64,000 nt of DNA from Bryoerythrophyllum caledonicum. Taxonomy: Eukaryota > Streptophyta > Bryopsida > Pottiales > Pottiaceae. A program made the position numbers and the translations under genes. Each line of letters opens with the position of its first letter. Within the stretch, counting starts at the first letter, position 1. Of this stretch, positions 10,977 to 51,453 are shown piece by piece. The stretch lies in assembly GCA_963971425.1 (NCBI GenBank), contig OZ020518.1:8845989-8909988 (forward strand), in the 5' to 3' direction. The notes below the pieces were generated by a model. It was not told the DNA's origin and ran no database searches. It saw only the letters and a program-made list of their open reading frames with translations.

Positions 10977-12777
10977 TGTAGAGCCTAAATCCTAAAAATA
11001 GTTTTTTTAAAAAAAATTAAGTGTAAAAAGGGTTGTAGATATTTGGAGAATCAAATAATTAATGATTAAGTTTACATTAAATAGTTAATTAATCAAGAAG
11101 TACCTATTCATATCCAAGAGATAAGGATTAATGGAAAAAGGGTCGAACTCGCATCCTTTGGGAAGGGTGTGCCTTTACATATCTAGATATGAATAGATGT
11201 GAGGATTTAGTGGAATTAATCTTAATGGTTAATTATAGGCAAAACCGTTTTTCCAAGAGGTGTGCCTCTTGGATTTGAGTAGAATGACTAGCTTGAATTT
11301 TTAGCATTCTTTGCCATTACCATAGAAATTCCTTGGAAGAAGATTGAAGTGAGCCCTAACTTAGGTGAAAAAGCTAGTAATTGAAGAAATCTCTTATGTT
11401 GTAAGAGTATTATGTTATGTGTGAAATTATTAATATATAATTATTATTGAATTTGCATGTGTAGAGTCTTGTGTGTGACTTGAGTCATATGTATAATTAC
11501 AATAATATTTGAACTTCATAGAATAAATTTGACATTGTGTTTTGTAAATGCAATTATATGCATGAGGTATTAATTGTGAATAAATTCCTATGCATAAATG
11601 CATTAATTATTTAGATCTTCATTGTAGAAATTAGGAAATCATCCTAATTAATTATGTGACATGAAATTGTGTGTGTTGATGAATTAAATTTAATGTATTG
11701 CATATGAGTGAAGTATGAATACTTAATGTTAAAACTTCAAGAGATAAAGTTAGGGAAGATCCTAACTATGTCAAAGTGACATTGTGAATATTAATGTAAT
11801 AATTCTAAGTGTATGTAAGGCATTTAGAAATTAATTTGGAGTAAGAAACTTAATGCATTAATGTCAGGAATGCATAAGTAATTGATGTAAGACTTAAGTT
11901 CAAGTATAGAAACTTAAGTATTAAGACATAAGACGGGAGTCTTGTGCATATGTAAATAACAAAACTTAAGTCTACAGTGAGGAAGGACTTAAGTATGAAT
12001 AACAGGACTTAAGTCCGAGGGTTAGGACTTAAGTCTAGAGTGATAGGGCTTAAGTCTAGAGTGAGAAAGAACTTAAGTATTAACGATAGGGCTTAAATCT
12101 GAGTGTTAGGACTTAAGTCTACAGTGAGGGAAAACTTAAGTCTGAGTTACAGAACTTAAGTCATGCAAGTGTAAGAATGAAGATACTCTTTTTGCATTTA
12201 AGTGTTAAGGACTAATAGATAGGTTAGACTTAAGTCCGGACTTAGAGTAGAAATATTTAAAGGCTTAATCTAACTTGTATGTTGTTCGAGTCTAACACTT
12301 GTGATAAGTACGTGAGTACGTGAGTACGTGAACCGTGGGATGTACGTGAGAAGTGGAGCGAATTGCACGAGGTAAGTTCGTGAATTCTAAATGGAATTAA
12401 TTAAGGAATCAACCATGAGTGCAATGGATAGTATCCAAGACCCGAAGATGGCAAAAGTATAGGAAACTAACAAACGTGCATATTCATAGTTAACTCAAGA
12501 GCAAGGCTCTTTAGAAGAGCAAGGCTCTACCTAAGCACTTAAATCCTTGGGATTAATACCTTAAGAGTCGGATGTTAAGTTTGATGTGTTTTAAGGCTAA
12601 ATTCCCTAAAAATGAGTGCATAAACTTAAGTGATTCAATAGAAAGATAGCTTTCGGCCTACAATTAAAGACAAATTACTTAACGGTTGACGCTAGACCAT
12701 CCCGGGAAGAATTTAGAATCATGGAGAGACTCGTGTGAGTCTTGGATGTTTTGTGAAAATGAATTTTCAGGATTACA
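10977..12777 (+). repeat. 5' LTR of the OTA gypsy element
   Basis: 1801 bp, AT-rich, starting TG and ending CA. The 3' copy differs by roughly a dozen substitutions and lacks no segment; it carries one extra unit of about 20 bp in the CTTAAG array. That low divergence by eye (under 1 percent) implies a recent insertion. Internal features are the ACTTAAGT-rich array (about 11895-12170), three tandem TACGTGAG units at 12308-12331, and an AGAGCAAGGCTCT pair near 12490-12530. Confidence 0.9.
11895..12245 (+). repeat. CTTAAGTC palindromic repeat array inside the LTR
   Basis: Fifteen or so copies of (G/A)ACTTAAGTC, a palindromic core, are spaced about 20 to 30 bp apart with related spacers such as TACAGTGAGG and TAGAGTGA. 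The 3' LTR holds the same array plus one additional unit. Arrays of this kind in U3 often bind transcription factors, but no known plant motif is assigned here. Confidence 0.6.
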
Positions 12778-13000: not shown

Positions 13001-14290
13001 ATGTCTTTTCCATGGGAAATTAATGAACAAAGTCTAAGTGACTTTTTCAAGGGACCATATTTATTTAGCGCCTTATATCGTGTTTATAGAGGTGCGTATT
13101 ATGGTCAAGGTTTTCAATTTTATGGAGCACACCCAAAAATTAATAGAAACTTTAAAGAAAAGTTTGAACAATTACCGATAGAAATTTAAAAAATAATTTA
13201 AAATAAAGTGTGGGATAAAGGTGAAGGATTTAATGAAGTAATTGTCAAGAAAAAGACATTGTATTTGAAATACCAACTATAATTTCTTTTTGCTCAATAC
13301 GGTAGATTAAAACTTCAATCCCAACCTTTAATTTCTAAAGGTATTGGAGCTTGGAACGGATTTAAGTTTGATAAGGAAACTTGTATCTTTATTTATAGTA
13401 AAACTTTACTTCCAAACTAAGGTATTTTTTCCAGATTTCTTGTCCAAAGACCCGGAACTTCCCGTAACTATAGCTTTTGGTTTATTATGTCTTTAATCAA
13501 TGAATTTTGAAAATGAAACATCTAAGGACTTAAGAACTAGGTTGAAAATATTGTTAATAATCTATGAAAAAATAAAGTATAATGAATTAAAATTATTTAA
13601 CCTTTTGGAGAAGGAGATAGAAAAAATTAAGGAAAATAATAAAAATTCAAAAAAGAAGATTGATATCATTAATGGTCTTTTACGGAAATTTAAATATCCA
13701 AGGGAATTAATTATTGAACCTTTACCATTAATGATTAAAATAGAAAATTTTACCCTAACAACTTGGTATCATTACCAAATTCTTTATGGAACAACCATGG
13801 GAGAGTCCTCTGAGTAGAAGATCTAGACTAATAAGACGTATAATATCCAAAATTCAACGTTATTAAACTCTTGCACCTAATGATAGGAAAGAATTAAAAA
13901 TACTTGAGGACGGAATAGACGGATTACTTGGAGAATTAAGTCATTGGGTGAGTGCTGACGAGATGGGAGAGCTGTTGACTATCTTAAGTTATCCTAGGCA
14001 TGTCCATGAAGATGTTAAGGGAATGAATCTTTCAGAGGAGGCTATTTATCTTTGCTAAAATTAAAATTCTAAAAAAATTAAAATTCTAAAAAAATTAAAA
14101 TTAAAAATAAAAATAAAAATAAAGATATAGATAAAAACTCTATGGGGATTACTAATGTCAGGAAAAGACAAAGAGAAAAGAGAAAAACAATAAATTGAGA
14201 GAGCTCAACGTTATAAGAAAAGGACAGAGAAAAAACAGCCATCCATAGTGTTAGGAATACACAATCCTACCTTTAACACTGCCACAACTC
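13001..14290 (+). pseudogene. gag: OTA gypsy gag, N-terminal part, broken
   Basis: Open blocks lie in different frames: 13001-13189 (starting MSFPWEINEQSLSDFFKGP), 13500-13817 (Lys/Glu/Asn-rich helices), and a basic segment running to 14290. The last block, after a TAA at 14191, is in the same phase as the gag frame that resumes at 25626: ...TFNTATT at the left edge and ACT-CTT-TCT at the right edge join without a shift once one copy of ACTC is removed. This shows the methyltransferase gypsy landed inside this gag. No domain was recognised in the N-terminal part itself. Confidence 0.55.
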
Positions 14291-14661
14291 TGTCAGGTTC
14301 GACGCGTTGGAGGGTTTGTGGAGGTTGGTTTACGCGTTGTAAACCAACTAGGAGGTTAAATGGCCCAAGGAAACCCTAGATGCTAGCTTTAGTTGTTAAT
14401 TAGAGTTAGTATTAGTGTTCTTTGACTTTTAGGGCCTTGGTGGTGTCTTTTGACACCTCATTTGGGACTTGGAGTCCAAATGACCTCCACGTGTAGTGTG
14501 GGGAGACTCATCTTTCTCAAGTTGAGTCTCCCACGTGATGGAGTGAGAGAGTGCGTGCTTGCGTGCACTTCTTAAACTTCATTGTTATTATGCGACCATT
14601 CTTTAAGAATGGCATTGGCTTGACTATATGTAGTTTATGAGTATTTTCTACTTGTTTATTA
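14291..14661 (+). repeat. Terminal repeat A1 of the methyltransferase gypsy
   Basis: 371 bp, present again at 25023-25393 (A2) with a single difference noticed (AAACC versus AAATC near 14343). It begins TGTCAGG directly after the ACTC target site. After 14661 the sequence diverges at once from what follows A2, so the left end lacks the B segment that completes the right-hand repeat. Confidence 0.9.
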
Positions 14662-16736
14662 CTTGAGAAAGATCATCACTAAGATATGAGTGTATTCCTA
14701 GTGATTTAGTGACACTTAAAACCTTCAAAATCTTGTGTTTGAGGTGTTTTTGAGCAATGTTTTAGTGCTGAAATTTTGTTGCAAAACCTCAAGTGTGCTT
14801 AGCTAGTTGGATGAGGATCATTAGATAAGATAAGAAGGGTGAGGTGGAGGATTACCTTTGCTAATATTTGTGGATGAAAGTGCGTTGACTTTACGTACTT
14901 CATCCATTGTTTGGTCACGAGTAGTCTGCCTCAGATCCGTTTGGGAGGAGAGAGACGTCGCTGGACGCGGGGTCTGTGCGATGGCGTCGGAGTCTGTGTG
15001 CATGGTGACGTGAGGAAAGGGCGCGTGTGGTATGGGGCGCTGGACTGTGAAGTGCGAGGTCGGGAGCTAGAGGTTGGAGCGAGGAAGTTGACTGCAGGCG
15101 GGCGATGACGAGGTTGGTGGAGGTGACGATAAGCGTGCCCACCTCGAGCGTCCTGTTCTTGTGAAAATGCGCGCTGCTGGGTACCACGGCCTTCGAGAGC
15201 AAGTACTTGGAACTGAGCGTGATGCCGGCCTTACCCCACATCGGGATCAGATTCTCCTCAAATGCCAGCTTGTATGCCCACCCCGCCCAGTATAGCAGCT
15301 ACGTACGGAGGTGACACGGTGGTTTGTGTCTTCCGGTGTGCGTTCTGTGCAGGTGATCTGTTTATGGGTACCGAGTGATATGAGTACCAGGGTCAGAGTA
15401 TGGATTCAGATCTGGACTGTGGCGCAACTTTTTGAGTGTAGCGTGGTTGTACATTGTGCGCGTAAGCGGGGAGTTGGGACGAGGTCTAGGTACCGAGTAA
15501 TGTGAGAGCTACGGGGTTGGTGGTTTCTGTGAGTACAGGCAGATAGGGCTCACTTCGGCGCAGACAGAGCGGTGTGTAAGTAGAGCGGTACAGACATGGC
15601 GGCATTGACAGGTTTTCGGTGAACCACACCCGTACCAGGTCGCTGCTATCCTACCCGACTACTGCTTATATCCGGTTCTCGATACCCGATCTTCTTATTG
15701 GTACCCGGTATTTGATTTATACCCGGTTTGAGAGATTGATACCCGGGACAAGGTTCGTATCCGGGTCTGTGGGTTGATATCCGACGTACAGGTTCATATC
15801 CGAGGTACAAGTTAATACCCGAGGTACAGGTTGATACTCGTGTAGAGAATGGTACCCGCATATGTTTGATTGATACCCTCCTATAGTTGATATCCGCCTG
15901 GTTATTGATACCCGCTTGCTCCAGCTTATACCCGGTGCTGCGGAGACCTGGTCTTTGTGCTGGTACCCGGCTTGCGAGATTCTACCCGGACCAGTGATTG
16001 ATACCCTTGCATTATGTGAGACCCTGTTCTTTGTTAGTACCCCGATCACCTTACTGAAACCCGATTAGCTATTCCATACCCGGTTCTGTAGTTTATACCC
16101 GGGGCAGAGTTTATACCCTGGACAGGGTTTATATCCGGGGCGGATTGATACCCGGGCATACGGTTTCCTTCCCAGCATTAGTTATGATACCCGGTTCTTG
16201 TGCTTCTACCTAGTTCGTGTATTGATGCCATGGTCAGCTGTTGATATCTATACCCGAGTCAGAGGTTGATATCCCTTATAGAGTATGATATCCGAGATGT
16301 CGGGTTGATGACCGGCAGTCGGGTTGATAACCTGTAGTGTGGGTTGATAACCCGGAGTGGGACTGATAACTGATAGGGTGGGTGATATCCACATGGTAGT
16401 AGATACCTATATTTGTGCACGTTTTCTAGTTCTGCTATCGGTACGATTGCTACTTCTCGTCTCTCGTAGCTTCTTCTCGTAAACGGAAAACGTGATATTA
16501 CATCATACGGTATTTGGTTCGCACGATACCCGCACTGGGACTACTTGTGGCTGCCATACTCGTATGAAGTCAGGAAGAACTTGCATGTGAGGTCATGAGA
16601 GGATGAAGGTTTATTATGAGGGGTGATTGCATACACAGCACCTGGTAGGGGGCAAAGTGGACGCTTGGAAGCTTACGGGGACTCTGTTAATATGGTTTGA
16701 GAATTTCAAGGATATTTGGCACTCTAATTATGGACC
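14662..16736 (+). other. 2.1-kb leader of the methyltransferase gypsy
   Basis: This lies between A1 and the first coding frame. It starts AT-rich, becomes GC-rich from about 14940 to 15620, then enters the TACCCG minisatellite. No conserved protein was recognised, and the frames in the minisatellite are repeat artefacts. A canonical primer site was not found; TGGTAGGGGGC at about 16640 follows a CACC rather than a clear LTR end. I see no other feature. Confidence 0.45.
15640..16400 (+). repeat. GTTGATACCCGG minisatellite in the leader
   Basis: Some 25 or more degenerate units of about 20 to 35 bp share a TGATA(C/T)CCG core, often followed by GGNNCAGG and preceded by GGTT. Spacing and sequence drift, so it is an old or rapidly evolving array. 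A similar ATTATACCCGGTTCC occurs at about 46986 in the leader of an unrelated gag-only element. Confidence 0.7.
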
Positions 16737-17378
16737 ATGGAGGGAAGAGGTAAGTCCAAGAAACCCGGGAGGACTAGTGGGCCGAAGGTGGAAATTGATG
16801 GTGAGGTGTTGGACACCTTGATCGATTGTTTGCAGAGCCTACGAGTGAAAGGTTCTCCAGCCACAGCAAGTGGTAGCCACGGGGACTTTGAACTTTCTCC
16901 CATAGCAAAATCTCGCTCGGGGCCTCAGAGTTTGCACAAACCAGGCACGAAGGTGTTGAGTGCAGAATCAGTGAAGTATTGGACTTCACTAGGTGGGGTC
17001 CAGAAGATTCGTTCACTTCGGACAAAGGAGGGAATTCTAGCACCGCTGTGCCGTGCTCGTGGGCAAGTGGGGGTTGAAGACTTAGTGATTGGAGGTAAGG
17101 CCGTGGTTCTACGGAATTCCGGATCCAGATATAGTGTAGAGGTCGAGGACTTCTCTTCAGGAATCCAGTTACCCACCTTCTCCCTCATTTTCACCGAGTT
17201 CGAGAGCGAAGGATTTTTATTCCACACTACCTGGCAGTGGGAGGTTAATACGTGGCAAGAGCGTGCCTCGAGTGTGTGGGATACTCTTACGTTAGAGTTA
17301 TTGGACTGGGAAGTCACACCTACGATCTATGCTCCACAGATGAGAGGGACCCATGAAGCCTGGCAGTTGTTTGAGTAG
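16737..17378 (+). CDS. Leader ORF of the methyltransferase gypsy, function unknown
   Basis: 213 codons, ATG at 16737, TAG at 17376. The N-terminus is basic (MEGRGKSKKPGRTSG). A middle part (QKIRSLRTKEGILAPLCRA) is followed by predicted beta-rich segments, and the C-terminus is Trp-rich (TTWQWEVNTWQERASSVW and LLDWEVTP). No zinc knuckle, protease or other known motif was recognised. It ends 86 bp before the gag frame and is in a different phase. It could be a matrix-like N-terminal gag part, a separate accessory protein, or gag displaced by a frameshift. It is intact, unlike most frames here. Confidence 0.6.
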   Translation: MEGRGKSKKPGRTSGPKVEIDGEVLDTLIDCLQSLRVKGSPATASGSHGDFELSPIAKSRSGPQSLHKPGTKVLSAESVKYWTSLGGVQKIRSLRTKEGILAPLCRARGQVGVEDLVIGGKAVVLRNSGSRYSVEVEDFSSGIQLPTFSLIFTEFESEGFLFHTTWQWEVNTWQERASSVWDTLTLELLDWEVTPTIYAPQMRGTHEAWQLFE

Positions 17379-17464
17379 ATCACGAAACTAGCAATCTGGA
17401 GAACTGGAAGGGTCCCGGGTTTACGCGTAGAAACACCCCCTTCTCAGTAGATGTTAGTGAGAGA

Positions 17465-19021
17465 GTGTTGTCTGAAATTCGTGGTCAATCAAAAGAGTCT
17501 GAGGACTGCGTTTTGCCTGTGGTAAAAGAGGAACAATTTCTAGAAGGCCCACAGGCGGGTGTTCAGGTCCCAGTGTTACCCACAAAACCTTACCAATCAT
17601 ATTTTGATTGGGAGGAAATGGCTTCACCATATGGAGGTGGAGAAAGAGGGGTACGAAGATTTTCAGGTGCCACGGGCACCATCGAAGTCGATGACTTCAA
17701 GAGGGAGTTCACCATGTGGTGTGAACTCCAGAAGTCACGTAACCCCAACTTCAATTCGTATATGGTGTGGAGAGCCTTGTTTGGGTGTCTGGAAGGAGCG
17801 CCACTGGCGGACTACGGAGAGTTCGAGGCAGCTCATTTCACCGAAATCATGGCCTGGAGGGACTTCTACGCACCGAACTACGTGGACGTGTTCGGTGGAG
17901 CACCGAGGGTGACACCCCCACTCTTGTCCAAGGGGAAGATGGAGGAAGGCACGAGCTCAACGGAGGATGTGGAGCAGCCAGAGGCACTGGTAAATCATCC
18001 ACCTCCATTCAATCCCACCGTGGGATTTTTCGTGCAACTCCATAGAAACTACCAAGGACAGAGGGCGGATAAGATGAAGGCCCCGCGTTCCTTCACAGGT
18101 GGAGGTGACGAGTCTCTGAGAGAGGCTCATGCGAGATTAAGGAGACTAATCTCAGCTACTCACGGAGTTACAGAACAACAGGCAGTGCAACATTGGTACA
18201 GTATCCTGAATAAGGAGTTGAAGACCTTGGTTCGCAATGAGGCGTTGCGATTGGGAGTACCCACGACACTACGGTTTGTTTTTGAGACTTCAGAGCGGAT
18301 TGAGATAAACTTACTGGAAGAGAAGGCAGCCATGGGTTTTTTCAAACGTGAAGAGAAGGTCCCAGAGAAGGTTAACGTGGCCAAGGTGGCCATTCCTTCG
18401 TATACTGCAGAGTTTGGTGCCTTTTGCTTCAAATGTGGGAAGCCAGGACACCAGAGGAAGGATTGGAAGGAAGGTAAGACTTCCACACCTCAGACTGGAG
18501 GTTTTTGCTCGGGTTGTGGTGCCAAGGGGCATGCAGAGGCCAGCTGCTGGAAGCTTCATCCAGAGTTGAAGCCAACGGGGAGCAAGGGAGCTAAAGGAGG
18601 CAAGAACAAGGAGTCCAAGACCACTGGAGGGGAGAAGAAGAGTTGGAAGGCCAAATTTGCCGAGTTGGAGGCCAAGATGGAAGCTATGAGTGCCAATACC
18701 AATGTAGTAGGTAGCAAGCCTCAGGTTACTCCCAGTTTTCATGCTGGGGGCGGGTTTAGCTCCGTAGATGATGAATTTGGAGACTTTATGTTGAGTGGTA
18801 TGGCACTTGCCATCAGGGATGGCACACAGGAGGCCTATGCCCTTACACGGAGTCATACTCCAAGTTCTAAGGATGTTCCACGTGGAGCTAGTCCAACTCT
18901 GGATCCCCACCATAGAAAGGATAATCGACAAGCCAGGTTGCCTCAATCCTTCACGTTAGAAGAGATGGTACCGACGTCATCCATGGTACCTCCACCACGA
19001 CTAGTGGCAACCCCCACATAA
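17465..19021 (+). CDS. gag: gag of the methyltransferase gypsy
   Basis: 518 codons up to TAA 19019-19021; the start is uncertain (GTG at 17465 opens the frame; the first ATG is near 17618). The capsid-like core includes FKREFTMWCELQKSRNPN, then NHPPPFNPTVGFFVQLHRNY, then RSFTGGGDESLREAHARLRR and VQHWYSILNKELKTLVR. Two CCHC knuckles follow: CFKCGKPGHQRKDW, whose last Cys is Trp, and the intact CSGCGAKGHAEASC. A Lys-rich tail follows. The frame continues without shift into protease after the TAA, so the stop interrupts a single polyprotein; CAA-to-TAA is the simplest explanation. Confidence 0.8.
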   Translation: MLSEIRGQSKESEDCVLPVVKEEQFLEGPQAGVQVPVLPTKPYQSYFDWEEMASPYGGGERGVRRFSGATGTIEVDDFKREFTMWCELQKSRNPNFNSYMVWRALFGCLEGAPLADYGEFEAAHFTEIMAWRDFYAPNYVDVFGGAPRVTPPLLSKGKMEEGTSSTEDVEQPEALVNHPPPFNPTVGFFVQLHRNYQGQRADKMKAPRSFTGGGDESLREAHARLRRLISATHGVTEQQAVQHWYSILNKELKTLVRNEALRLGVPTTLRFVFETSERIEINLLEEKAAMGFFKREEKVPEKVNVAKVAIPSYTAEFGAFCFKCGKPGHQRKDWKEGKTSTPQTGGFCSGCGAKGHAEASCWKLHPELKPTGSKGAKGGKNKESKTTGGEKKSWKAKFAELEAKMEAMSANTNVVGSKPQVTPSFHAGGGFSSVDDEFGDFMLSGMALAIRDGTQEAYALTRSHTPSSKDVPRGASPTLDPHHRKDNRQARLPQSFTLEEMVPTSSMVPPPRLVATPT

Positions 19022-19066
19022 GCCTTACCACGAGCTGGAGGACTCACAGGAGGTTCGGAAGCACTT

Positions 19067-21019
19067 ATGGAGGCAACTACTTCCATGTGGAAAGCCTCGT
19101 TATTTTCTGCTAAGATGTTGTCACAGGATGGCTTCAGTGTGGCAGAAGTTTTCAAGAATGTAGCCTCAATGTGTGAGTTGGACAACTCCACGGGCGTTAA
19201 TGTGTTGAAGACAGAGATAATCCAGGCAGAGAAGAGCCAGAGTGACAACGTGGAGGGGCTGCTTTCAGCAGCCATGCGTGTGAAGACAATGGCCGCTAGA
19301 CCTGCGATTGAGAGATCATCCATTATCCATGGTGTGGTAGTGGTTGATAATTCCCAAGGTATTTTCCAACTCGTTGGGCCTAAGGGGAAGATATTTGTAC
19401 GTCGACGTGTGCTTCTGGATTCAGGAGCTCAACCTTTGATGCTGGTAGCGTCAACTATGGAAGGGTTGGGATTAACTGGGGATACTTTAGAGAAGTGTCC
19501 CTGGACCATTAGCACATTCATGGGGGGTACAGAGCAAGCCACAGGGATCACAAGGGCTGAGTTGGTGTTACAACTCAACCAAAGCGATGTGGCAGATGCC
19601 AGTTCTATGAAGGTGAAGGCAATCGTTACGGAGGCCAAGTCGTATGATGTCTTGGTGGGCTCGGCGGTGCTATACCCTATGGGATTCACCTTGGATTTCT
19701 GGGAGGAGTCAGCAAACTATAGACCAGGATGGCAAGTAGGAGATGGGCGGAAGGCTCAGCTGCCAGGTCGATTTGTTCGAGTTCTTACTGGTAACTTAGC
19801 TGACCTGTTTGCCTTCTCAGGATGTAGGAACATGAAACCTTCATGGTTTCAGGCAGGTTTTGAGGATCCTTCTATGGTTGACCACATTTCAGAGAAGGTG
19901 GATGCCTACATGGGCAACACGAGTAGTGGAGAGGAAGAAGGATATAGACCTGGGATTGAGGCGGCATGGAGTAACACCACACAGTTGAGGAAGGCCGCGG
20001 AGTTAGCAGTGGAAGAAGCATGGCAACAATCATTGCTACCACAGATGCAACAGGCGACTGGGCTTAATCAAGACATGGGGCCTCCGTTAGACACTGCTAC
20101 CATCCATTGGAAAGCACCAATGGATGGTATCGTATTATTGGAGCTCTTTGGAGGAATTGGCACAGGCCTGGTAGCTGTTTTACAAGCCGGGATCAAGGTT
20201 AAGCGCTACATTTACGTGGATGTGGATGAAGCAGCAAGACATGTGGCCAAACGTCACACAAAGAGACTGAGGACTCAATTTCCAGAATTGTTGGCCACTA
20301 GTGCCATCAAAACCTCTTTCTCTACTCTTGCGGGTGATATTTCTTTGTTGTCAGATGATGACATTCACCGTGTGGGTCATGTGGACCTTGTCATTGCAGG
20401 ATGGCCTTGCCAAGGCATGTCTATGGCAGGCAATCAGAATGGGTTACATGATTCACATTCTTCCAGGTTCTTTGACATGATTCGAGTGATTCGAGTGCTT
20501 CAGACTTCTCAGAGGCAACCGCCTGGTTATATTGTGGAGAACGTGCCCGTGGTGAGTAGTTCGAGGTCCAGGACACTCGAGAGTATGCATAGGATCCATC
20601 AGACTCTGGGATTGCCAGTGTTAATTGATGCGGCTGCAGTAGGGTCCAGGGCACATAGACCACGCTTGTGGTGGACAAACCTGGCACCAGCAGAGTTGCT
20701 ACAGTCCGCGGTGGGTCGTCTTAAACGTCCAGATGTGTATGTGAGTAACATTTTGGATCCTCACAGGACACCACGGCGCGTGTATCACGATGACCAGGCA
20801 CCATTAGCGGTGGTTAACCGCAAGGGGGAACCACGTAGGGCCTTGCCCACGTTGGATAGCTTTGCACGGTCTTATGCCTTCAAGGATAATGGACCTGGAC
20901 TTGTATGGGATTCATTGTCCCAGGAAATGGTGGAGCCCAATGCAAATGAACGAGAGAGAGCCATGGGGTTTCCCACAGGCACCACCGATGTGCCTATGGA
21001 TTTGAATTGCTTGACTTAG
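19067..21019 (+). CDS. Protease and DNMT3-type cytosine-5 methyltransferase
   Basis: 650 codons in the gag frame. The aspartic protease is marked by LLDSGAQPLML (DSGA at residues 118-121). Methyltransferase motifs appear in the standard, unpermuted order: motif I LFGGIGTG (360-367), motif IV GWPCQGMSMAG with the catalytic Cys at 448, motif VI ENVP (491-494), motif VIII GSRAHRPRLWW (526-536), and ERERAMGFPTGTTDV (630-644). The blocks DLVIAGWPC, PVLIDAAAVGSRAHR and MGFP..TTDV match the animal and moss DNMT3 pattern; plant DRM enzymes have a permuted order. A target-recognition region between motifs VIII and X is present. TAG at 21017-21019 falls near the C-terminal end of the domain. It is predicted to methylate cytosine in DNA; specificity is unknown. 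Confidence 0.9.
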   Translation: MEATTSMWKASLFSAKMLSQDGFSVAEVFKNVASMCELDNSTGVNVLKTEIIQAEKSQSDNVEGLLSAAMRVKTMAARPAIERSSIIHGVVVVDNSQGIFQLVGPKGKIFVRRRVLLDSGAQPLMLVASTMEGLGLTGDTLEKCPWTISTFMGGTEQATGITRAELVLQLNQSDVADASSMKVKAIVTEAKSYDVLVGSAVLYPMGFTLDFWEESANYRPGWQVGDGRKAQLPGRFVRVLTGNLADLFAFSGCRNMKPSWFQAGFEDPSMVDHISEKVDAYMGNTSSGEEEGYRPGIEAAWSNTTQLRKAAELAVEEAWQQSLLPQMQQATGLNQDMGPPLDTATIHWKAPMDGIVLLELFGGIGTGLVAVLQAGIKVKRYIYVDVDEAARHVAKRHTKRLRTQFPELLATSAIKTSFSTLAGDISLLSDDDIHRVGHVDLVIAGWPCQGMSMAGNQNGLHDSHSSRFFDMIRVIRVLQTSQRQPPGYIVENVPVVSSSRSRTLESMHRIHQTLGLPVLIDAAAVGSRAHRPRLWWTNLAPAELLQSAVGRLKRPDVYVSNILDPHRTPRRVYHDDQAPLAVVNRKGEPRRALPTLDSFARSYAFKDNGPGLVWDSLSQEMVEPNANERERAMGFPTGTTDVPMDLNCLT

Positions 21020-21031
21020 ATTGTTTCATTA

Positions 21032-21430
21032 GTGGTTACAGAACAGAAGCGGTTAGCTTCTAGTTTGACTAGTTACATGGGTTATTATGAGTTGCGGGCG
21101 GCAGGAGAACCACTTGCCTCTGTCAGGATGACAAGCAAGGTGGTTGGGGGCGAGAGGGCCTTGGCACCTCATCCATGGAACATGTGGGATAACGCAAATA
21201 TTTTTGCGACCACCAAGACAATAGATCTTCACTATGGAGGAGAGAACTGGAGTGAAGGGAGCACATTGGCTCACCAGAGGATAGATTTGGAGGATGTTGT
21301 GGAGAAGATCTTCTTGGAAGAACAGACAGCTCTTGACATGGAAGAAATTGACAAATTGGGTCAATTGGAAGGACTTGGGAGTGTTATTGAGGAGGAAGGA
21401 GGGGAGTCTCCTTCACTGGGGATTCAATAG
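21032..21430 (+). CDS. Polyprotein linker after the methyltransferase
   Basis: This open stretch in the same phase as the methyltransferase frame lies between TAG 21017-21019 and TAG 21428-21430. Its first 25 residues (EQKRLASSLTSYMGYYELRA) probably belong to the last helix of the methyltransferase fold. The rest is an acidic linker (DLEDVVEKIFLEEQTALDMEE) with no recognised domain. The second stop lies between two Gln codons (ATT CAA TAG CAA), consistent with CAG-to-TAG. A canonical polyprotein would read straight through to RT. Confidence 0.6.
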   Translation: MVTEQKRLASSLTSYMGYYELRAAGEPLASVRMTSKVVGGERALAPHPWNMWDNANIFATTKTIDLHYGGENWSEGSTLAHQRIDLEDVVEKIFLEEQTALDMEEIDKLGQLEGLGSVIEEEGGESPSLGIQ

Positions 21431-21439
21431 CAACCAAGG

Positions 21440-22996
21440 GTGGAAAACCCTGCTCCAAAGGAACCGAAGGAGGTGGTGACTAAGGACACTTGGAAACCAA
21501 GAGTAGGCCTGGCGGATGGAGCAGTGGAGGTGGAGGAACATGAGTTCCTGAAGGAGTATTTAGATTGTTTTGCTTTCAGTTTACAAGATTTGGGAGTGTT
21601 GAAGGGGCAAGAAGTGCGTATTAACTTAACCGACGAAGCACCAATTTATCGAAAGCCATACAAGTACAGCGACATGGAGCGGAAGATGATTCGTGCTCGC
21701 ACTAAAGAATTGATGGGTGCAGGGTTGGTGGAGTTGGTTCCTCCAGATTGTGAGTATGCATCAGCAACGGTTATGCCATCCAAGAAGGACATTTATGGTA
21801 ATTGGACTGAGAAAAGGATGTGTGGTGACTATAGGAGAATTAATAAATTCACTAAGTCAGACCGTTATGCAATGCCAACTCCTGAGGAGAACTTTGAGGC
21901 CATTGGCCATGCCAAGGTGTTTAGTACGTTGGATTTACGCTCTGGATACCACCAGATTGGATTGAGAGAGGAAGACAAGGAGAAAACCGCATTCTGGGGC
22001 ATTGACAGGGATGGGTAGGACCGGTTGTTTCAATGGAAGTTTCTACCATTTGGATTGAAGAATGCTCCAGCAGAATTTCAAAGGGTCATGGACAGAGTAT
22101 TCTCGGGGCTGGATTTCGTGAGATGCTATATTGATGACATCATTGTCTTTAGTAGGAATCGAAAACAACATAGACTACACTTGATGGAGGTTTTTGCTAG
22201 ATTGAGGCTTCATGGATTAAAGTTGCACCCTGGTAAGTGTAAATTCTACTTTGATCGCATTGAGTATTTAGGCCACATGATTTATCCAAGTGGATTAGGT
22301 GTGGTAGCCAGCAAAGTGGAAGTAGTGATGTCTATTCCTAGACCACGAGATGTTAGTAGGTTGAGAGTATTTCTGGGGTTGTGTAACTATTATAGAAAGT
22401 TTGTCAAAACTTTCAGTGCTATTGCCAAGCCATTAACCATGTTGACAAGGAATGATCAACCTTGGATCTGGGGAGATGAGCAAGAGGCGGCCTTTCAACA
22501 ATTGAAAGACCGTTTGGCATCAGCACCAATACTTCGGAGGCCTATAGCAGGAAGGACATACCAGCTACACACAGATTGGAGCTCGTTGGGGATTGGTGCA
22601 GTATTGACGCAAATGGATGATGATGGTAAGGAATTTGTGATTGCGTATGCCAGCCGGTCCAACAACAATGCTGAGGCTCAGTATAGCTCGTATGAGGGGG
22701 AATGCTTGGCTACGATATGGGCAATTGCTCATTTTCGGTGTTATCTTTATGGTAACAAATTTCTGTTAGTTACAGATCATCAGTCGTTGAAATGGTTGAT
22801 GGAGTCTGATAAATTGACAGGAAAATTGGCACGGTGGGCCTTGATGTTGATGGAGTATGACTTCAAGGTGGTTCATAGGGCAGGTTTGGTTAATATGGAT
22901 GCAGATGGCCTTAGCCGCAATCCAATTCCAAACCAAGAGGATGATACAGGTGCTAGGTGGCATAGTGAGGGTGAAACCGACCCGTTGCCAGGGTGA
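21440..22996 (+). CDS. pol: Reverse transcriptase and RNase H of the methyltransferase gypsy
   Basis: Same phase throughout, with one TAG at 22016-22018. RT blocks: YRKPYKYSDMERKMIRART, then KRMCGDYRRINKFT, then FSTLDLRSGYHQIGL with catalytic Asp, FLPFGLKNAPAEFQRVMD, and an intact YIDDIIVFS at about 22129. RNase H follows: QLHTDWSSLGIGAVLTQM, then YEGECLATIWAIAHF, VTDHQSLKWLM and NMDADGLSRNP keep the acidic catalytic residues. The TAG follows DRDG and is one transition from a TGG or CAG codon. TGA 22994-22996 separates this from the integrase; a TGG or CGA origin is possible. Confidence 0.88.
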
Positions 22997-23020
22997 CATT
23001 GTTCGGGTTTTCTGGGGATA

Positions 23021-24556
23021 TTGACAATGAAGGGAGACACCACTGGGGAAGCTACTGTGGCCACAGTAGATGAGGATGGAGGTGAGGAGTCTGGGGGCGC
23101 CAGAGATATTCACGAAGACACGAATGTGATGCAGTTTTTGCAAGATGGAGAAACGGTGGCTTCATGGTCTCATAAGGAGAGAGATAGGGTTCTACAACGA
23201 GCCAAGAGGTTTGTGTGGGAGAGGACTCACCTTGTGAGAGTGTGGCCAGATGGTACTAAGAAGGTAGTACCAACTCCAATAGAAAGAGTGAAACTGATTA
23301 AAGACACGCATGAGGACCTTGGACACTTTGGAGTGCGGAGGACTTATAGTCTACTTCAGATTCACTACTGGTGGCGTGGAATGCAATCTCAAGTGCAAGC
23401 TTTAGTGGCTCGGTGTATGGTGTGTGACCAGGTACGAGCGTCTTTTAACGCTCCAATGCCTCAGTTACAACCTTTGCCAATTATGGGCTTAGAATATAGA
23501 TGGAGCTTGGATTTTGCAGGTCCATTGCCAGTGACACCTCGACACAACAAGTATGTGTTGGTAATCATCGAGCATTTCTCGAAATGGATAGAGTTAGTGG
23601 CATTGCCTGATAAGTTCAGTGAGGGAGCTGCTTATTCGTTTCTTGACCGTGTTTTGAGTCGCTTTGGAGCTCCAGCAGAGGTACTTACAGACCAAGGCAG
23701 AGAATTCTTGGGTGAGTTTCAGACGTTGTGTGAGCAAGCGATGATTGATCATCGCACTACTTCGAGGGATCACCCCGTAGCAGATGGATTGGCGGAGCGC
23801 ATGGTGCAAACCGTCAAGAGGGGGCTCCGGAAGTACAGCTTGAAGAAAGGACATCACCAGGATTGGGATTTACAGCTACCATGGATAGCAGTGGGCTATC
23901 GGTTCAGCAAACAGGCATCCTTGGCGTCTTTTTCACCTTACTATCTATTGTTTGGAAGGCACTCGGTTTTACCGAAGGCCATTCAAGCAGATGCTGACAC
24001 CGTGTTGGCTAACATGGACAATCCAAACACGTGGGCTCAAGTGTGTGAGCAACGTGCAGAGTTATTTAAAAGGGTGATGCCTATGGCATTGGAGAACCTC
24101 TCCATTGCTCAACATCGGGATACGTTGCGTTATGCTACAATACGAGGAGGTGGTTATCGACCGCAGGTGCGGCGTTTCACACCTGGAGACTATGTGTATT
24201 TGCAGCAAGCAGCGCCCACCACCTTGGATGTGACAGCAGGAAGGATAATCTTGAGAGTTCGTGAGGTGAAGGACTCAGGAGTGTTAGTGTTGGAGGGTCG
24301 TGATGGCAAGAAGTGGAAGGATCACACACGTAATTGTGCACCTTGTCACTTGCCACACATTGATGGGACAATACACCCTGGTCTCTCTCACATCTCTGTT
24401 GGATTACGTTGTCGATTGTGTGGTAGTGCCAAAAGGGCAGCCACTATGGTTATTTGTGACTTATGTTCTACGGGGTGGCATTTAGAATGCTTAACTCTAC
24501 CTCTGTTGGAAGTAGCAGTGGATCAATGGTCTTGTCCTGAGTGTTTAGCACGTTGA
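23021..24556 (+). CDS. pol: Integrase with C-terminal PHD finger
   Basis: 511 codons, same phase, ending at TGA 24554-24556. The HHCC zinc domain (HEDLGHFGV to CMVCDQ) and DDE core are intact: WSLDFAGPLP, LTDQGREFLGEF, and the Glu in GLAERMVQTVKRG. The C-terminal part has the GPY/F-like basic beta region. The last 50 residues form a complete C4HC3 PHD finger: C464, C467, C479, C482, H487, C490, C505, C508, with the usual Trp (W503) two residues before the last Cys pair. PHD fingers read histone H3 tails, so this is a plausible replacement for the chromodomain of chromoviruses in integration targeting. That role is inferred. Confidence 0.9.
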   Translation: MTMKGDTTGEATVATVDEDGGEESGGARDIHEDTNVMQFLQDGETVASWSHKERDRVLQRAKRFVWERTHLVRVWPDGTKKVVPTPIERVKLIKDTHEDLGHFGVRRTYSLLQIHYWWRGMQSQVQALVARCMVCDQVRASFNAPMPQLQPLPIMGLEYRWSLDFAGPLPVTPRHNKYVLVIIEHFSKWIELVALPDKFSEGAAYSFLDRVLSRFGAPAEVLTDQGREFLGEFQTLCEQAMIDHRTTSRDHPVADGLAERMVQTVKRGLRKYSLKKGHHQDWDLQLPWIAVGYRFSKQASLASFSPYYLLFGRHSVLPKAIQADADTVLANMDNPNTWAQVCEQRAELFKRVMPMALENLSIAQHRDTLRYATIRGGGYRPQVRRFTPGDYVYLQQAAPTTLDVTAGRIILRVREVKDSGVLVLEGRDGKKWKDHTRNCAPCHLPHIDGTIHPGLSHISVGLRCRLCGSAKRAATMVICDLCSTGWHLECLTLPLLEVAVDQWSCPECLAR

Positions 24557-24600
24557 GGGTCTGAGTGGACAAAGTCTAGCATTAAAAATATGTTAGAGGC

Positions 24601-24637
24601 AATTAACGATGGGGGTCTACTTGCACCCGGCCTACCC
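24601..24637 (+). promoter_or_regulatory. Conserved 3' signal shared with the gag-only family
   Basis: TTAACGATGGGG followed shortly by TTGCACCCGGCC. The same signal, in the same order and spacing, lies downstream of gag in three copies of the gag-only family (54071, 59241 reverse strand, 62223). The purine run before TGCA looks like a polypurine tract and LTR start, but the element 3' terminal repeat lies further right, so it may instead be an internal packaging or priming signal. Confidence 0.65.
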
Positions 24638-24788
24638 TTTGTTTGTTAAGTCTTTTAGCGCCTTTTCATGTGGATTACAGTGATTCTATGGTTTTGAGAG
24701 GTTTTCATTCGCGGTTATCATTCAGTTTACATATAAACTGTGTGGTTCGCCGGTGTGAAAGGGGCTTCAGCACGGGCGAAGGGGGCGA

Positions 24789-25020
24789 GTAAAGGGGTAC
24801 TTAGAGACCGCTTACTACTTCTTGGTGTACGAGGTCATGGGTCATTTATTTCTTTTTCCCCAAGTTTGGATTGCTGAAAGTGTGTGTGTGTGCATTGTAT
24901 TATTGTTTTATAGAGGTAACGGTGGTGGTTATGTCACCGTTACTCTCGAGTTGTCTTTGACTGTGCGTTCTCACCTGATTAGCACGATGTTATCTTGGCA
25001 CGATGCGGTTGTGCACGACA
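24789..25020 (+). repeat. Repeat B1 of the methyltransferase gypsy
   Basis: 232 bp beginning GTAAAGGGGTACTT and ending GTGCACGACA. It recurs at 25394-25625 (B2) with five differences, four of them transitions. It is followed by GC and then A2. The contained open frames are not conserved as protein and look incidental. A TGTG run of six repeats lies inside. Confidence 0.9.
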
Positions 25021-25022
25021 GC

Positions 25023-25393
25023 TGTCAGGTTCGACGCGTTGGAGGGTTTGTGGAGGTTGGTTTACGCGTTGTAAATCAACTAGGAGGTTAAATGGCCCAA
25101 GGAAACCCTAGATGCTAGCTTTAGTTGTTAATTAGAGTTAGTATTAGTGTTCTTTGACTTTTAGGGCCTTGGTGGTGTCTTTTGACACCTCATTTGGGAC
25201 TTGGAGTCCAAATGACCTCCACGTGTAGTGTGGGGAGACTCATCTTTCTCAAGTTGAGTCTCCCACGTGATGGAGTGAGAGAGTGCGTGCTTGCGTGCAC
25301 TTCTTAAACTTCATTGTTATTATGCGACCATTCTTTAAGAATGGCATTGGCTTGACTATATGTAGTTTATGAGTATTTTCTACTTGTTTATTA
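25023..25393 (+). repeat. Terminal repeat A2 of the methyltransferase gypsy
   Basis: 371 bp, the second copy of A1 (14291-14661), starting TGTCAGG. It sits between B1 and B2, so A2 plus B2 form a 603-bp unit with TG...CA ends, which would be the expected LTR. Confidence 0.9.
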
Positions 25394-25625
25394 GTAAAGG
25401 GGTACTTGGAGACCGCTTACTACTTCTTGGTGTACGAGGTCATGGGTCATTTATTTCTTTTTCCCCAAGTCTGGATTGCTGAAAGTGTGTGTGTGTGCAT
25501 TGTATTATTATTTTATAGAGGTAACGGTGGTGGTTATGTCACCGTTACTCTCGAGTTGTCTTTGACTGTGCGTTTTCACCTGATTAGCACGATGTTATCT
25601 TTGCACGATGCGGTTGTGCACGACA
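25394..25625 (+). repeat. Repeat B2, right terminus of the methyltransferase gypsy
   Basis: 232 bp, second copy of B1, ending CACGACA at 25625 directly before the target duplication ACTC and the resumed gag frame of the OTA element. Confidence 0.9.
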
Positions 25626-27308
25626 ACTCTTTCTCCATTTAAATTAGATGATGAATTAGAAAAAGCCTTAGAAAAGGCATTGAGACAAATCAAAAGGGAG
25701 AAAACATATAAGACACTGTCCAACCCTCCAAATTCTCCTCAGTCAGAATCAAAGAAAGCACAATTTACCCCAGAAGAGTTAGTACTCGTAGCATTAAAAA
25801 ATCCTAGAAAAGAATATGTAGGTAAAAGAAAAGATAAAAAATATACCACTCACTCTTGTAGTTCTAATAGCCCAAAAGAAGTGAATTGGGAGACCCAAAG
25901 CAAGAAAGCTTGGTCTAATTCCTTAGAAAAGAAAGAATCCTCAGAAGAGGAAGATGAAAAACTTGTTAATGAAGATATATTTAACGTTAACACTCAACAA
26001 CTTGATGAGTTAGAACAATTGTTTAGAACCCCCATACCACACTCCTTAACAATTGATCGTACCTACGAAGTAGGTAACTCCTCAAACCAAACAGACTTTG
26101 AGACTCCCTATCCAAGTTTTTTTGCCCAAAGATTTGAGTCGAAATTAGAAACACCAATATTTACTCACAGTGAAGCAAAAGAATCTATTGACCACTTTCT
26201 TAATGCCAGATCATTGAAAAATGAGGAAGAAAAATATGAGTTTCGTAAGGAAGTGTTAGAAGCATTTAGCCAAATCCTTAGACCTACTACCTTAAACTTT
26301 GACATACAAGAAGAGATTGACCAATCTAGTGTGGAGGAAGAGGAGGTTAAGTATAATCTTATTAACGAGGAAGAGTTTGAAGTAAGTGGGCAAAGTGAGC
26401 CTAAAGGAGGTGAAAGTAAACTTAACAGTGTTGAAGAAGAAGAACACTCAGAACTACCATCACGAGTAGAGAGTCCAGCTGGACATTCCTCAGGTACTTC
26501 TGGGAGGACTTCTCCTTCTGACACTTCTTCTATTAATTCTACCTCTAGCAGGTCCTCACCACCTTCAACCCCTCCTACTCCTGACGACCTTTTGGTTGAT
26601 CCCGTTGCTATGGCGCATCTTAGGATGCTTAATATAGCTCCATTTTCCATATTCTATGGAGATTTAGGAGAGGATCCAGATTCCTACTTGGAAAGATTCC
26701 AAGTAGTAGCAATAACTAACAATCTAGCAGTTGATAAGTATATCACTAGTTTTCCTGGTAATCTACTAGGGGAAGCTCAGAGGTGGTATGCAGCATTAAA
26801 TCTTCTATCAGCAGACTGGGATACTTTAAAAGAGGCATTTTTGGCCAGGTTTAGGCCTCAGTCTTATCATAATACCTTGTAAGATCAATTACAAAGTTTT
26901 CAGATGTATCCTACTGAATCTATAGCGGGTTACTATACCAGACTTAAGAATTTGTTACACAGATGGAGGGATAATGAGATGCCCGAGTCATGGATTACAA
27001 ATACATTCACCAGAGGATTATTAGATCCTTTGTGTATCTATCAAGTCAAACTTTCTAATCCTGTAAACTTAACTGCAGCATATGAGGCTGCTAGAAATTG
27101 GGAAGCTGCTATGGAAAGATCTAACATGTTGTATCAAAACAGAAGAGTTACACAATTAGATCTTCAATATATGCCTATACCTTATCCAATTGGAATGGAT
27201 AGGAGTGGAAGAGACTACTATCCTAAAACAATAACCCATCAATCTCAATTAATGTTATCAGGACCAATCTCAGACAACAAAAAAACATTTAGCCTTAATG
27301 CCTGTTAA
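25626..27308 (+). CDS. gag: OTA gypsy gag, C-terminal part
   Basis: Continuation of the gag frame interrupted at 14290. An acidic, Ser-rich region precedes the capsid core: FSIFYGDLGEDPDSYLERFQ, then LLGEAQRWYAALNLLSADWDTLKEAFLARFRP, and, after an in-frame TAA at 26880-26882, SIAGYYTRLKNLLHRW and SWITNTFTRGLLDP. This is the Retrotrans_gag fold. The TAA lies after YHNTL and one transition (CAA) explains it. A second TAA at 27306-27308 ends the frame before the knuckle region, which continues in another phase. Confidence 0.8.
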
Positions 27309-42818: not shown

Positions 42819-44637
42819 TGTAAAGCCTAAATCCTAAAAATAGCTTTTTTTTGAAAATTAAGTGTAAAAAGGGTTGTAGATATTTGGAGAATCAAATAAT
42901 TAATGATTAAGTTTACATTAAATAGTTAATTAATCAAGAAGTACCTATTCATATCCAAGAGATAAGGATTAATGGAAAAAGGGTCGAACTCGCATCCTTT
43001 GGGAAGGGTGTGCCTTTACATATCTAGATATGAATAGATGTGAGGATTTAGTGGAATTAATCTTAATGGTTAATTATAGGCAAAACCGTTTTTCCAAGAG
43101 GTGTGCCTCTTGGATTTGAGTAGAATGACTAGCTTGAATTTTTAGCATTCTTTGCCATTACCATAGAAATTCCTTGGAAGAAGATTGGAGTGAGCCCTAA
43201 CTTAGGTGAAAAAGCTAGTAATTGAAGAAATCTCTTATGTTGTAAGAGTATTATGTTATGTGTGAAATTATTAATATATAATTATTATTGAATTTGCATG
43301 TGTAGAGTCTTGTGTGTGACTTGAGTCATATGTATAATTACAATAATATTTGAACTTCATAGAATAAATTTGACATTGTGTTTTGTAAATGCAATTATAT
43401 GCATGAGGTATTAATTGTGAATAAATTCCTATGCATAAATGCATTAATTATTTAGATCTTCATTGTAGAAATTAGGAAATCATCCTAATTAATTATGTGA
43501 CATGAAATTGTGTGTGTTGATGAATTAAATTTAATGTATTGCATATGAGTGAAGTATGAATACTTAATGTTAAAACTTCAAGAGATAAAGTTAGGGAAGA
43601 TCCTAACTATGTCAAAGTGACATTGTGAATATTAATGTAATAATTCTAAGTGTATGTAAGGCATTTAGAAATTAATTTGGAGTAAGAAACTTAATGCATT
43701 AATGTCAGGAATGCATAAGTAATTGATGTAAGACTTAAGTTCAAGTATAGAAACTTAAGTATTAAGACATAAGACGGGAGTCTTGTGCATATGTAAATAA
43801 CAAAACTTAAGTCTACAGTGAGGAAGGACTTAAGTATGAATAACAGGACTTAAGTCCGAGGGTTAGGACTTAAGTCTAGAGTGATAGGGCTTAAGTCTAG
43901 AGTGAGAAAGAACTTAAGTATTAACGATAGGACTTAAATCTGAGTGTTAGGACTTAAGTCTACAGTGAGGGAAAACTTAAGTCTGAATGATAAAACTTAA
44001 GTCTGAGTTATAGAACTTAAGTCATGCAAGTGTAAGAATGAAGATACTCTTTTTGCATTTAAGTGTTAAGGACTAATAGATAGGTTAGACTTAAGTCCGG
44101 ACTTAGAGTAGAAATATTTAAAGGCTTAATCTAACTTGTATGTTGTTCGAGTCTAACACTTGTGATAAGTACGTGAGTACGTGAGTACGTGAACCGTGGG
44201 ATGTACGTGAGAAGTGGAGCGAATTGCACGAGGTAAGTTCGTGAATTCTAAATGGAATTAATTAAGGAATCAACCATGAGTGCAATGGATAGTATCCAAG
44301 ACCCGAAGATGGCAAAAGTATAGGAAACTAACAAACGTGCATATTCATAGTTAATTCAAGAGCAAGGCTCTTTAGAAGAGCAAGGCTCTACCTAAGCACT
44401 TAAATCCTTGGGATTAATACCTTAAGAGTCGGATGTTAAGTTTGATGTGTTTTAAGGCTAAATTCCCTAAAAATGAGTGCATAAACTTAAGTGATTCAAT
44501 AGAAAGATAGCTTTCGGCCTACAATTAAAGACAAACTACTTAACGGTTGACGCTAGACCATCCCGGGAAGAATTTAGAATCATGGAGAGACTCGTGTGAG
44601 TCTTGGGTGTTTTGCGAAAATGAATTTCAAGATTACA
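42819..44637 (+). repeat. 3' LTR of the OTA gypsy element
   Basis: 1819 bp, near-identical copy of 10977-12777 with the same TGTA start and GATTACA end, followed by the GCTCT target duplication. The extra length is mainly one additional CTTAAGTCTGAATGATAAAA unit at about 43977-43998. Confidence 0.92.
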
Positions 44638-50400: not shown

Positions 50401-51421
50401 TACCGTTAACTTGGTAAGTACTAGACGTTGGACCCTTGTCCCTATGCATATTAGGTGATCATGACTCGTATCCACTCTGAATCGTACGATGTTCATCTGA
50501 ATTTTTTAACCGCAGGATCCTCATGATCATCCAACGTTCTCATTTCCGCGGTAACATAGAAACTAGTCATTCTTTTTTCCCCCTTTGCTGGCATTTTCAC
50601 TCAAAGGTACAAATTAAAATCATTAGTTAGCGAGAGGCACGGAACCGGTATCCACTACCTAGAAAATGATGGTGAATCCCATCCCGCCAAAATGAAGTAA
50701 ACTGAACCACCATCAAATTTTCCTCTCAATTTTGAAAGACGAGGGCGCTTACTCTTGCACTCTTGAAGCTGTTGTTCGTTTTAGGTCAGAATTGGATGTG
50801 AGGTTTCCTATTTGTTCAAGAACTGGACAGTTAGTGAGTGAGGGTTTGAGTTTTGTCCTCCTGTAGATGAAGTAGCCTTCGTCCTACTCCGTAAGCTTCA
50901 AGTCCTTGCGCCTGAGCAGGTTTACGGTGGTCTTCTATTATAGAATGTCTTGAGTTTATTGTCTTTGGTATTGTGTGCCGGAGGTGGGAATGTGGGTGTC
51001 CTCGTTTGATATCACACTCCTCTTTGTTTTGCAAATTGTGCGCTTGATTCATTTACGGATTTTTCTCTTCATAGGAGATTGTTTGATTGAATTAGTTGGA
51101 CGCTGACCAAAGAAATATCGATGGCAAGTAGGTGATTTTGGCCAAGTGGCTGGTGCTTGCCAGAGTTTTAGGTTACCGCCCTTGTTACACGTAATTGCAA
51201 TTTTAGTGAATGGTAAGCTATGGTGTCCAACATCAATTCTTATATATTATTTAACCGTTTTGCAAATGGATTTTGCTATGATACTTTTGTGTAGGGTATG
51301 TGGGATTATGGATACAAATTCTGATGTGTACTACTAAACATGATTCATCCTCATTTAATGCACCCCAAGTTTGACATCATGAGGTGAAAGAGTAGAGAAA
51401 ATTGATCTCAATTATATCATG
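50401..51421. other. Spacer with no gene recognised
   Basis: Mixed composition. It ends with the target site TCATG (51417-51421) of the gag-only element. I see no conserved frame, terminal repeat or regulatory motif that I can defend. Confidence 0.4.
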
Positions 51422-51453
51422 TGTGGGACTCCGTTCCCACATGGTGCCGGAAG
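51422..51453 (+). promoter_or_regulatory. 5' terminal hairpin and primer-like site
   Basis: TGTGGGACTCCGTTCCCACA can form a stem-loop and is followed at once by TGGTGCCGGAAG. A site starting TGG directly after CA is what a tRNA primer site looks like. The same hairpin opens the reverse-strand copies at 61877 and 47196. Confidence 0.6.

Follow-up and report, generated by a model that had tools for sequence, protein, structure and literature searches.

A Ty3/Gypsy retrotransposon family of the moss Bryoerythrophyllum caledonicum encoding a DNMT3-type methyltransferase and a PHD finger, with apparently shifted insertion ends

DNA methylation is as a rule directed against retrotransposons. The element described here, a Ty3/Gypsy retrotransposon on a 64,000-nt stretch of contig OZ020518.1 of the moss Bryoerythrophyllum caledonicum (the whole stretch is called the window below), encodes a DNA methyltransferase (MTase) of its own together with a PHD finger. 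Among the closest described systems is KnitGypsy-Dnmt3 of Klebsormidium nitens (de Mendoza et al. 2018, PMC5890265), which shares with the moss element the Gypsy domains, an unpermuted DNMT3-type MTase within the polyprotein and purifying selection, and whose repeats, like those found here, were described by its authors as a DIRS-element structure. The term PHD does not occur in the main text of that paper, and its account of the element, in the text available, gives no readthrough, self-primer, target duplication or explanation of the repeats. SymbioDIRS-Dnmt3 of Symbiodinium (PMC5890265) likewise has a DNMT3-type MTase, repeats in the arrangement A-coding-B-A-B and two domain orders, and its enzyme methylates CG in yeast; it differs from the moss element in having a tyrosine recombinase, another order of retroelement domains and a dinoflagellate host. 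Ginger1 transposons (Bao et al. 2010, PMC2836005) share a Gypsy-like integrase with extra C-terminal domains and 4-bp duplications, and TGTNR ends, which the TGTCA of the moss element fits, are common to Ginger1 and Gypsy. One family, Ginger1-9_HM, carries a PHD finger with Ulp1, so that integrase plus PHD finger is not new as such, but Ginger1 is a cut-and-paste DNA transposon of animals that has neither reverse transcriptase (RT) nor MTase. A chromatin reader after the integrase is found also in plant chromoviruses and in the Tcn1/Tf1 group (Neumann et al. 2019, PMC6317226), together with target duplications of 4 or 5 bp (4 bp here) and, in Tcn1/Tf1, self-priming; their reader is a chromodomain instead of a PHD finger, and neither 'PHD' nor 'methyltransferase' occurs in the text of that review as available.

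A literature search, conducted mainly at title and abstract level and with subscription journals mostly uncovered, returned no description of an MTase and PHD finger combined or of the end structure reported below, and no paper on a PHD-integrase-Gypsy element in Volvox; a paper on bdelloid long terminal repeat (LTR) elements contains no PHD element in the part available. Each half of the combination, the Gypsy element with DNMT3 and the integrase with PHD finger, is already published or widespread; the Gypsy-DNMT3 type itself is known from Klebsormidium.

The preliminary description of this locus, made from the DNA letters alone, placed the element at nt 17465–24556. This is the coding core, and the full span is nt 14291–25625 on the forward strand, bounded by repeats A1 and B2, with an upstream open reading frame (ORF0) and terminal repeats that had gone unmentioned. 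All the domains named earlier were recovered in the phase of nt 17465–24553: knuckle, protease, MTase, RT with YIDD, RNase H, integrase and PHD finger. The order protease-RT-RNase H-integrase with a DDE integrase is that of Ty3/Gypsy, as are the TG..CA ends with their short target duplication. The insertion is not bounded by two direct LTRs, the layout being A1...B1-A2-B2 or A-internal-B, and a two-LTR structure results only if B-gc-A is taken for the LTR and the insertion is regarded as permuted. On these sequence characters the element is a Ty3/Gypsy retrotransposon belonging to an abundant, multicopy family, and the copy in the window is decayed.

The DNMT3-type C5 cytosine MTase (nt 20105–21016, forward strand; Pfam E 7e-14) carries motifs I, IV (PCQ), VI (ENV) and VIII in unpermuted order. 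Among solved relatives the best match was DNMT3A (53 bits, collinear), followed by DRM2 (36 bits) and HhaI (33 bits); the motif order, collinear with DNMT3A, is not the permuted order of DRM, in agreement with the preliminary description. The window copy lacks 14 residues of motif X, which is damage to this copy.

The C-terminal C4HC3 PHD finger (nt 24386–24553, forward strand; E 2e-9) found its best solved relatives in MLL3, KDM5B, PHF12, KMT2D and CHD4, with UHRF1 among the matches listed. All eight zinc ligands are at least 90% conserved in 33 aligned sequences, which gives the C4HC3 pattern. A chromodomain after the integrase was not matched in the Pfam scan, and the PHD finger occupies that place; judged by eye, it presumably has no clear aromatic cage. 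From its sequence and position it is probably a histone reader attached to the integrase. Copies lacking one of the two modules, which would have spoken against the pairing first proposed, were not encountered: the PHD finger is present in all 30 loci examined at their right ends (the window's own included), split by a frameshift in one, and MTase and PHD finger lie in one stretch in loci of a diverged subfamily (subfamily 2, about 82% identical in the MTase; five loci examined). Several of the right-end loci show single residue changes in the PHD finger, some of them at zinc ligands.

Five in-phase stops lie within nt 17465–24553 of the window copy, at 19019, 21017, 21428, 22016 and 22994, so that the one continuous phase reported earlier holds as a shared phase only. 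Treating all five as decay was discarded for the stop at 21428, which is conserved across loci; the remaining stops are damage to the window copy. The coding region accordingly divides into ORF1 (nt 17375–21430, forward strand; Gag with CCHC, protease and MTase), an open phase with its first in-phase ATG at 17618 that ends at the UAG of 21428–21430, and ORF2 (nt 21431–24556, forward strand; RT with YIDD, RNase H, H2C2/DDE integrase and PHD finger), which shares the phase of ORF1. In the window copy ORF1 is interrupted at 19019 and 21017 and ORF2 at 22016 and 22994. The CCHC knuckle (18.8 bits) and the DSGA protease (18.5 bits) both score under the Pfam cut-offs. The context of the stop is CAA TAG CAA CCA, and UAG CAA CCA (nt 21428–21436, forward strand) fits UAG CAR YYA, a consensus for efficient readthrough (PMC3542737). 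TAG CAA CCA stands at the ORF border in 8/8 near loci (L001–L008, L001 being the window copy) and in four of the five subfamily-2 loci, the remaining one having a sense codon; the context is kept in 12 of 13 loci overall, the window's own counted. A conserved UAG CAR YYA between two ORFs of the same phase is the tobamovirus type of readthrough arrangement, and the UAG at 21428 is probably a readthrough stop separating ORF1 from ORF2. The earlier reading of a single polyprotein is not upheld: with this stop between the ORFs, the MTase becomes the last part of the Gag-side protein and the PHD finger the last part of the Pol extension, and from a leaky stop the MTase would be expected in great excess over the integrase.

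Both modules are under purifying selection, as judged by the ratio of nonsynonymous to synonymous divergence (dN/dS) between subfamilies, computed after excluding loci where the search pattern gave no full piece. The ratio is 0.04–0.05 for the MTase (328 codons; 2 by 4 loci), with a dS of 1.5–1.8 that is near saturation, and 0.06–0.09 for the PHD finger (55 codons); for comparison, it is 0.04–0.06 for RT and 0.06 for the integrase C-terminus. Intact copies, which the preliminary description had recommended looking for, exist: some copies have both ORFs open. By our own count, 21 of 112 scored MTase matches, drawn from the 2064 candidates of the first genome search, are stop-free with a frame of at least 1250 codons. 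The five subfamily-2 loci were read from the MTase on; ORF2 is open to the PHD end in some, and others have stops or a deletion. In one near copy (L004) the sequence before the protease region appeared by eye to be unrelated. A large family thus encodes its own MTase under selection and, on its integrase, a probable histone reader. Upstream, in a phase differing from that of ORF1 and ORF2, lies ORF0 (nt 16737–17378, forward strand; 213 codons), which has no Pfam match and no known domain. In the single subfamily-2 copy compared it is 72% identical with both start and stop kept, its dN is 0.22 with dS saturated, and dN/dS is 1.1 and 2.1 in the other two frames; by this comparison ORF0 is under selection.

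Two protein searches with the MTase, each scoring the best 8000 candidates by common words, matched proteins of Calypogeia fissa and Sphagnum, and longer proteins of Marchantia, Calypogeia, Sphagnum and Closterium; no protein named Klebsormidium was among the matches listed. A 2019 opinion paper stated that methylase-encoding transposons are absent from land plants such as tracheophytes (PMC6338049); the liverwort and moss proteins indicate that they do occur in bryophytes. The integrase and PHD finger matched proteins of Klebsormidium (P0133, P0159), Volvox (P0217), Calypogeia (P0134, P0140, P0230) and Marchantia (P0211, in which Pfam sees the PHD finger alone, though 67% of the query aligns), and a Riccia protein among the matches listed has no PHD finger. 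These integrase-PHD proteins of plants and green algae have H2C2 and a DDE integrase followed by the PHD finger, as in the moss element, but unlike it they have no MTase in the same record. It could not be shown that the two Klebsormidium proteins belong to the same element as KnitGypsy-Dnmt3. The PHD finger in Volvox, where no MTase is visible, hints that the PHD finger is the older addition.

In a comparison of the domains of 76 MTase-bearing proteins, the MTase lies ahead of RT in 11 and behind the protease, with no further domain visible, in 41; in eight it follows RNase H, and seven of these have an integrase behind it. MTase and PHD finger occur together in eight of the 76, five of them with RNase H first. 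The earlier statement that no described element has both modules therefore stands for the literature searched but not for sequence records, where both occur in these eight other proteins. Not every related protein has the pair: P0274, P0275, P0293 and P0312 have MTase and integrase and no PHD match (none in the Pfam scan of P0274). Five proteins (P0278, P0279, P0287, P0289 and P0291) show a second architecture, in which RNase H and integrase flank the MTase and the PHD finger lies further on. A tree of the MTase was made from 63 of 91 proteins with enough MTase plus two rows of the family, the rest, for which no architecture was visible, being dropped; it is rooted at the midpoint, has long branches and does not include host enzymes. 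In it, the proteins with the MTase after RNase H form one clade (13 rows, support 100/100). The proteins of the bryophyte type form a second (40 rows, 96/96), in which one row, P0273, lying among those of Marchantia, was wrongly labelled as the second architecture; further rows with the MTase before RT fall outside both. Either the MTase module changed its place in the polyprotein, then, or there was more than one capture.

The ends of the element consist of two repeats, each present twice. Repeat A1 (nt 14291–14661, 371 bp) begins with TGTCAGG, the left end as defined by the integrase; at the other side, repeat B1 (nt 24789–25020, 232 bp), a gc dinucleotide (nt 25021–25022), repeat A2 (nt 25023–25393, 371 bp) and repeat B2 (nt 25394–25625, 232 bp) follow one another, all on the forward strand, and B2 ends with CACGACA, the integrase-defined right end. 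The whole is flanked by the 4-bp target-site duplication actc (nt 14287–14290 and 25626–25629). When the element and one actc are removed, the flanks join into a reading frame that is open across the empty site. The joined empty site (left flank before 14290 plus nt 25608–26882) is a gag-like ORF of another retroelement. The arrangement B-2 nt-A-B was found in all 30 right-end loci, which had been chosen for likeness to that layout, and the 30 left-end loci all start with A (two bases short in L053) and have no B in the preceding 1.5 kb; the window copy belongs to both sets. The flanks outside the first A and the last B vary between copies. By eye, 4-bp duplications are present in 9/9 paired copies of the form B-gc-A-B and in 4/4 of the form A-internal-B, so that TG..CA ends with 4-bp duplications were seen in 13/13 copies with both ends examined. 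The reading of 14290 and 25022 as the limits of an element with ordinary LTRs was discarded after the second repeat pair was found and the ends were compared across many copies. In 29 of 30 loci A2 passes exactly into B2, and the remaining locus has a 4-nt filler at this junction. Within copies, B1 and B2 differ at 0–7 of 232 positions and A1 and A2 at 0–4 of 371 (nine pairs); in the window copy the Bs differ at 5/232 and the As at 1/371, although both pairs should date from the insertion. No fixed difference between B1 and B2 was found across the copies compared, which suggests that both copies of B derive from one template in each cycle, and the separate inheritance of B1 and B2 was discarded on this ground. 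L019 has an extra A-B unit at its right end, and the subfamily-2 copy L069 has two A|B junctions.

The signals for reverse transcription point to other ends than those used for insertion. At the end of A1 lies a 13-nt primer-binding site (nt 14661–14673, forward strand) whose reverse complement is found without mismatch at nt 14510–14522, the loop region of a hairpin within A (nt 14501–14532, forward strand) and the probable self-primer. This complementarity is exact in 26 of 30 left ends; of the other four, three carry a single change in A and the fourth carries one in the primer site. Among the 26 is a copy in which a G/C exchange affects both sides and its A2 too, and such a matching double change is expected if the element's own RNA is the template for the primer site. 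Three of the five subfamily-2 loci have the loop sequence, with the same hairpin in the one displayed, and the other two have no A2 there. Folding of the hairpin gave a z of −2.6 against shuffled sequences, 2 of 200 shuffles being equally good. A primer site complementary to the element's own RNA is the arrangement of Tf1-type self-priming, in which the 5' end of the RNA would serve as primer; no tRNA genes were found in the window, and tRNA priming is a further possibility. Directly before B1 is a purine-rich, probable polypurine tract (nt 24778–24788, forward strand). With the primer site after A1 and the purine tract before B1, the implied LTR is B-gc-A, 605 bp long, while the inserted DNA runs from the start of A to the end of B; the integrase therefore seems to cut inside the LTR.

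These features can be drawn together in an account that we regard as fairly probable. Readthrough would yield much Gag-protease-MTase and little Pol, and the MTase, whose fusion to Gag suggests packaging, would methylate the new complementary DNA (cDNA) within the particle, so that this would enter the nucleus marked like host DNA. Reverse transcription would make a canonical cDNA with B-gc-A as LTR, the ends of which would be joined, and the integrase would then cut B|gc|A inside an LTR to give A-internal-B-gc-A-B, seemingly the only form with the primer and R region at both ends, as needed for another round. The PHD finger, in the position of the chromodomain of chromoviral integrases, would dock the integration complex on histone H3. 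Self-silencing and the choice of sites by histone state, both raised in the preliminary description, are possible roles of these modules. The narrower proposition, that the DDE integrase bypasses the ends made by reverse transcription and uses the composite B|gc|A site, with gc as its cut site, on circularised cDNA, is put forward tentatively, and we doubt it somewhat more than we believe it. Such a route can be likened to the circle-junction route of bacterial copy-out/paste-in transposons. If true, the split direct repeats would result from a permutation, many sterile copies lacking repeats would be left behind, and the route would be linked with cDNA methylation by the element's own enzyme and with PHD-guided targeting. 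The end structure offers an account, concrete and testable, of the repeat layout noted in 2018 for Klebsormidium.

Several observations weigh against this account. The DNMT3 of the Klebsormidium Gypsy element gave no methylation in yeast, an outcome that its authors regarded as undecided because human DNMT3B failed too (PMC5890265). UAG CAR YYA occurs at three further places in the window (both strands scanned), so that only its conservation at the ORF border counts as an argument. A two-LTR circle would hold two equal B-gc-A sites, yet the second isomer, A-B-gc-A-internal-B, was found in none of the 30 left-end loci and at none of the 100 listed A|B junctions, these being compared with the 100 A|primer-site boundaries that were listed out of 249. 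The free opening of such a circle was discarded for this reason, and something must choose the site. Lastly, the A-internal-B copies may stem from recombination between B1 and B2 rather than from integration.

The forms of the element in the genome bear on this last point. With up to two mismatches allowed, the genome contains 302 boundaries of internal sequence with B1, 143 A|B junctions and 249 boundaries of A with the primer site. When the exact internal|B1 sites are taken in listing order, the first 57 of them (C1 to C6:4794850) include 30 right ends of the B-gc-A type (17 B-gc-A-B, and 13 of the 40 others, which continue into gc-A and were not followed to B2) and 27 of A-internal-B without terminal repeats, the remaining 27 of the 40 ending at the end of B and passing into unrelated DNA. 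All insertions may have begun as A-internal-B-gc-A-B, with A-internal-B arising later by recombination of B1 with B2 and A-B by recombination of A1 with A2. We give this an even chance: it fits the missing isomer and the 59 of 100 listed A|B junctions that have no preceding internal|B1 boundary among the 100 of 302 listed, but 27 of 57 sampled sites is frequent for young copies, and the A-internal-B sites of L076 and L084 adjoin MTase matches with open frames of 1371 codons.

The target of the enzyme may also be another than the cDNA. An MTase acting on host chromatin or on RNA would be well served by a Gag-side place, which would yield much enzyme, and an RNA target has been raised for a LINE enzyme of Symbiodinium (de Mendoza et al., PMC5890265); fusion to Gag suggests packaging instead, and we consider an action on host chromatin or RNA rather unlikely. 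In 39 repeat pairs, differences of the C/T type, unpolarised and accompanied by 22 transversions, were found at 2.2% of CG (17/766), 2.8% of CHG (12/425) and 1.2% of CHH (41/3329) sites. This hints, if weakly, at methylation of the inserted copies by whatever agent.

The split direct repeats A1...B1-A2-B2 are those of DIRS/PAT elements, and the Symbiodinium DIRS element with DNMT3 has the same A...B-A-B layout (PMC5890265). The internal B1-A2 junction might accordingly serve as the template from which the ends are regenerated, a mechanism that has been proposed for tyrosine-recombinase elements, with no cutting in the LTR; this would also explain the missing isomer. We think this improbable: Pol has a DDE integrase, and no tyrosine recombinase was matched in the scanned nt 16737–17375 and 17465–24553; the primer site and purine tract are exactly where a canonical B-gc-A LTR needs them; and all 13 copies have TG..CA ends with 4-bp duplications. 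DIRS and PAT elements are not known to make target-site duplications. That MTase and PHD finger are functionless passengers, as the broken window copy and the four MTase-integrase proteins without a PHD match might suggest, is scarcely credible and already contradicted by RT-like dN/dS values of 0.04–0.09 between subfamilies, by copies with open ORFs and by the same modules in other bryophytes and algae.

Elsewhere in the window, a 1.8-kb direct repeat of 98% identity (nt 10977–12777 and 42819–44637) represents another recent repeat family, and an inverted pair with 73% identity over 3.5 kb (nt 51421–54909 and 58403–61878) lies in the G+C-richer part of the window.

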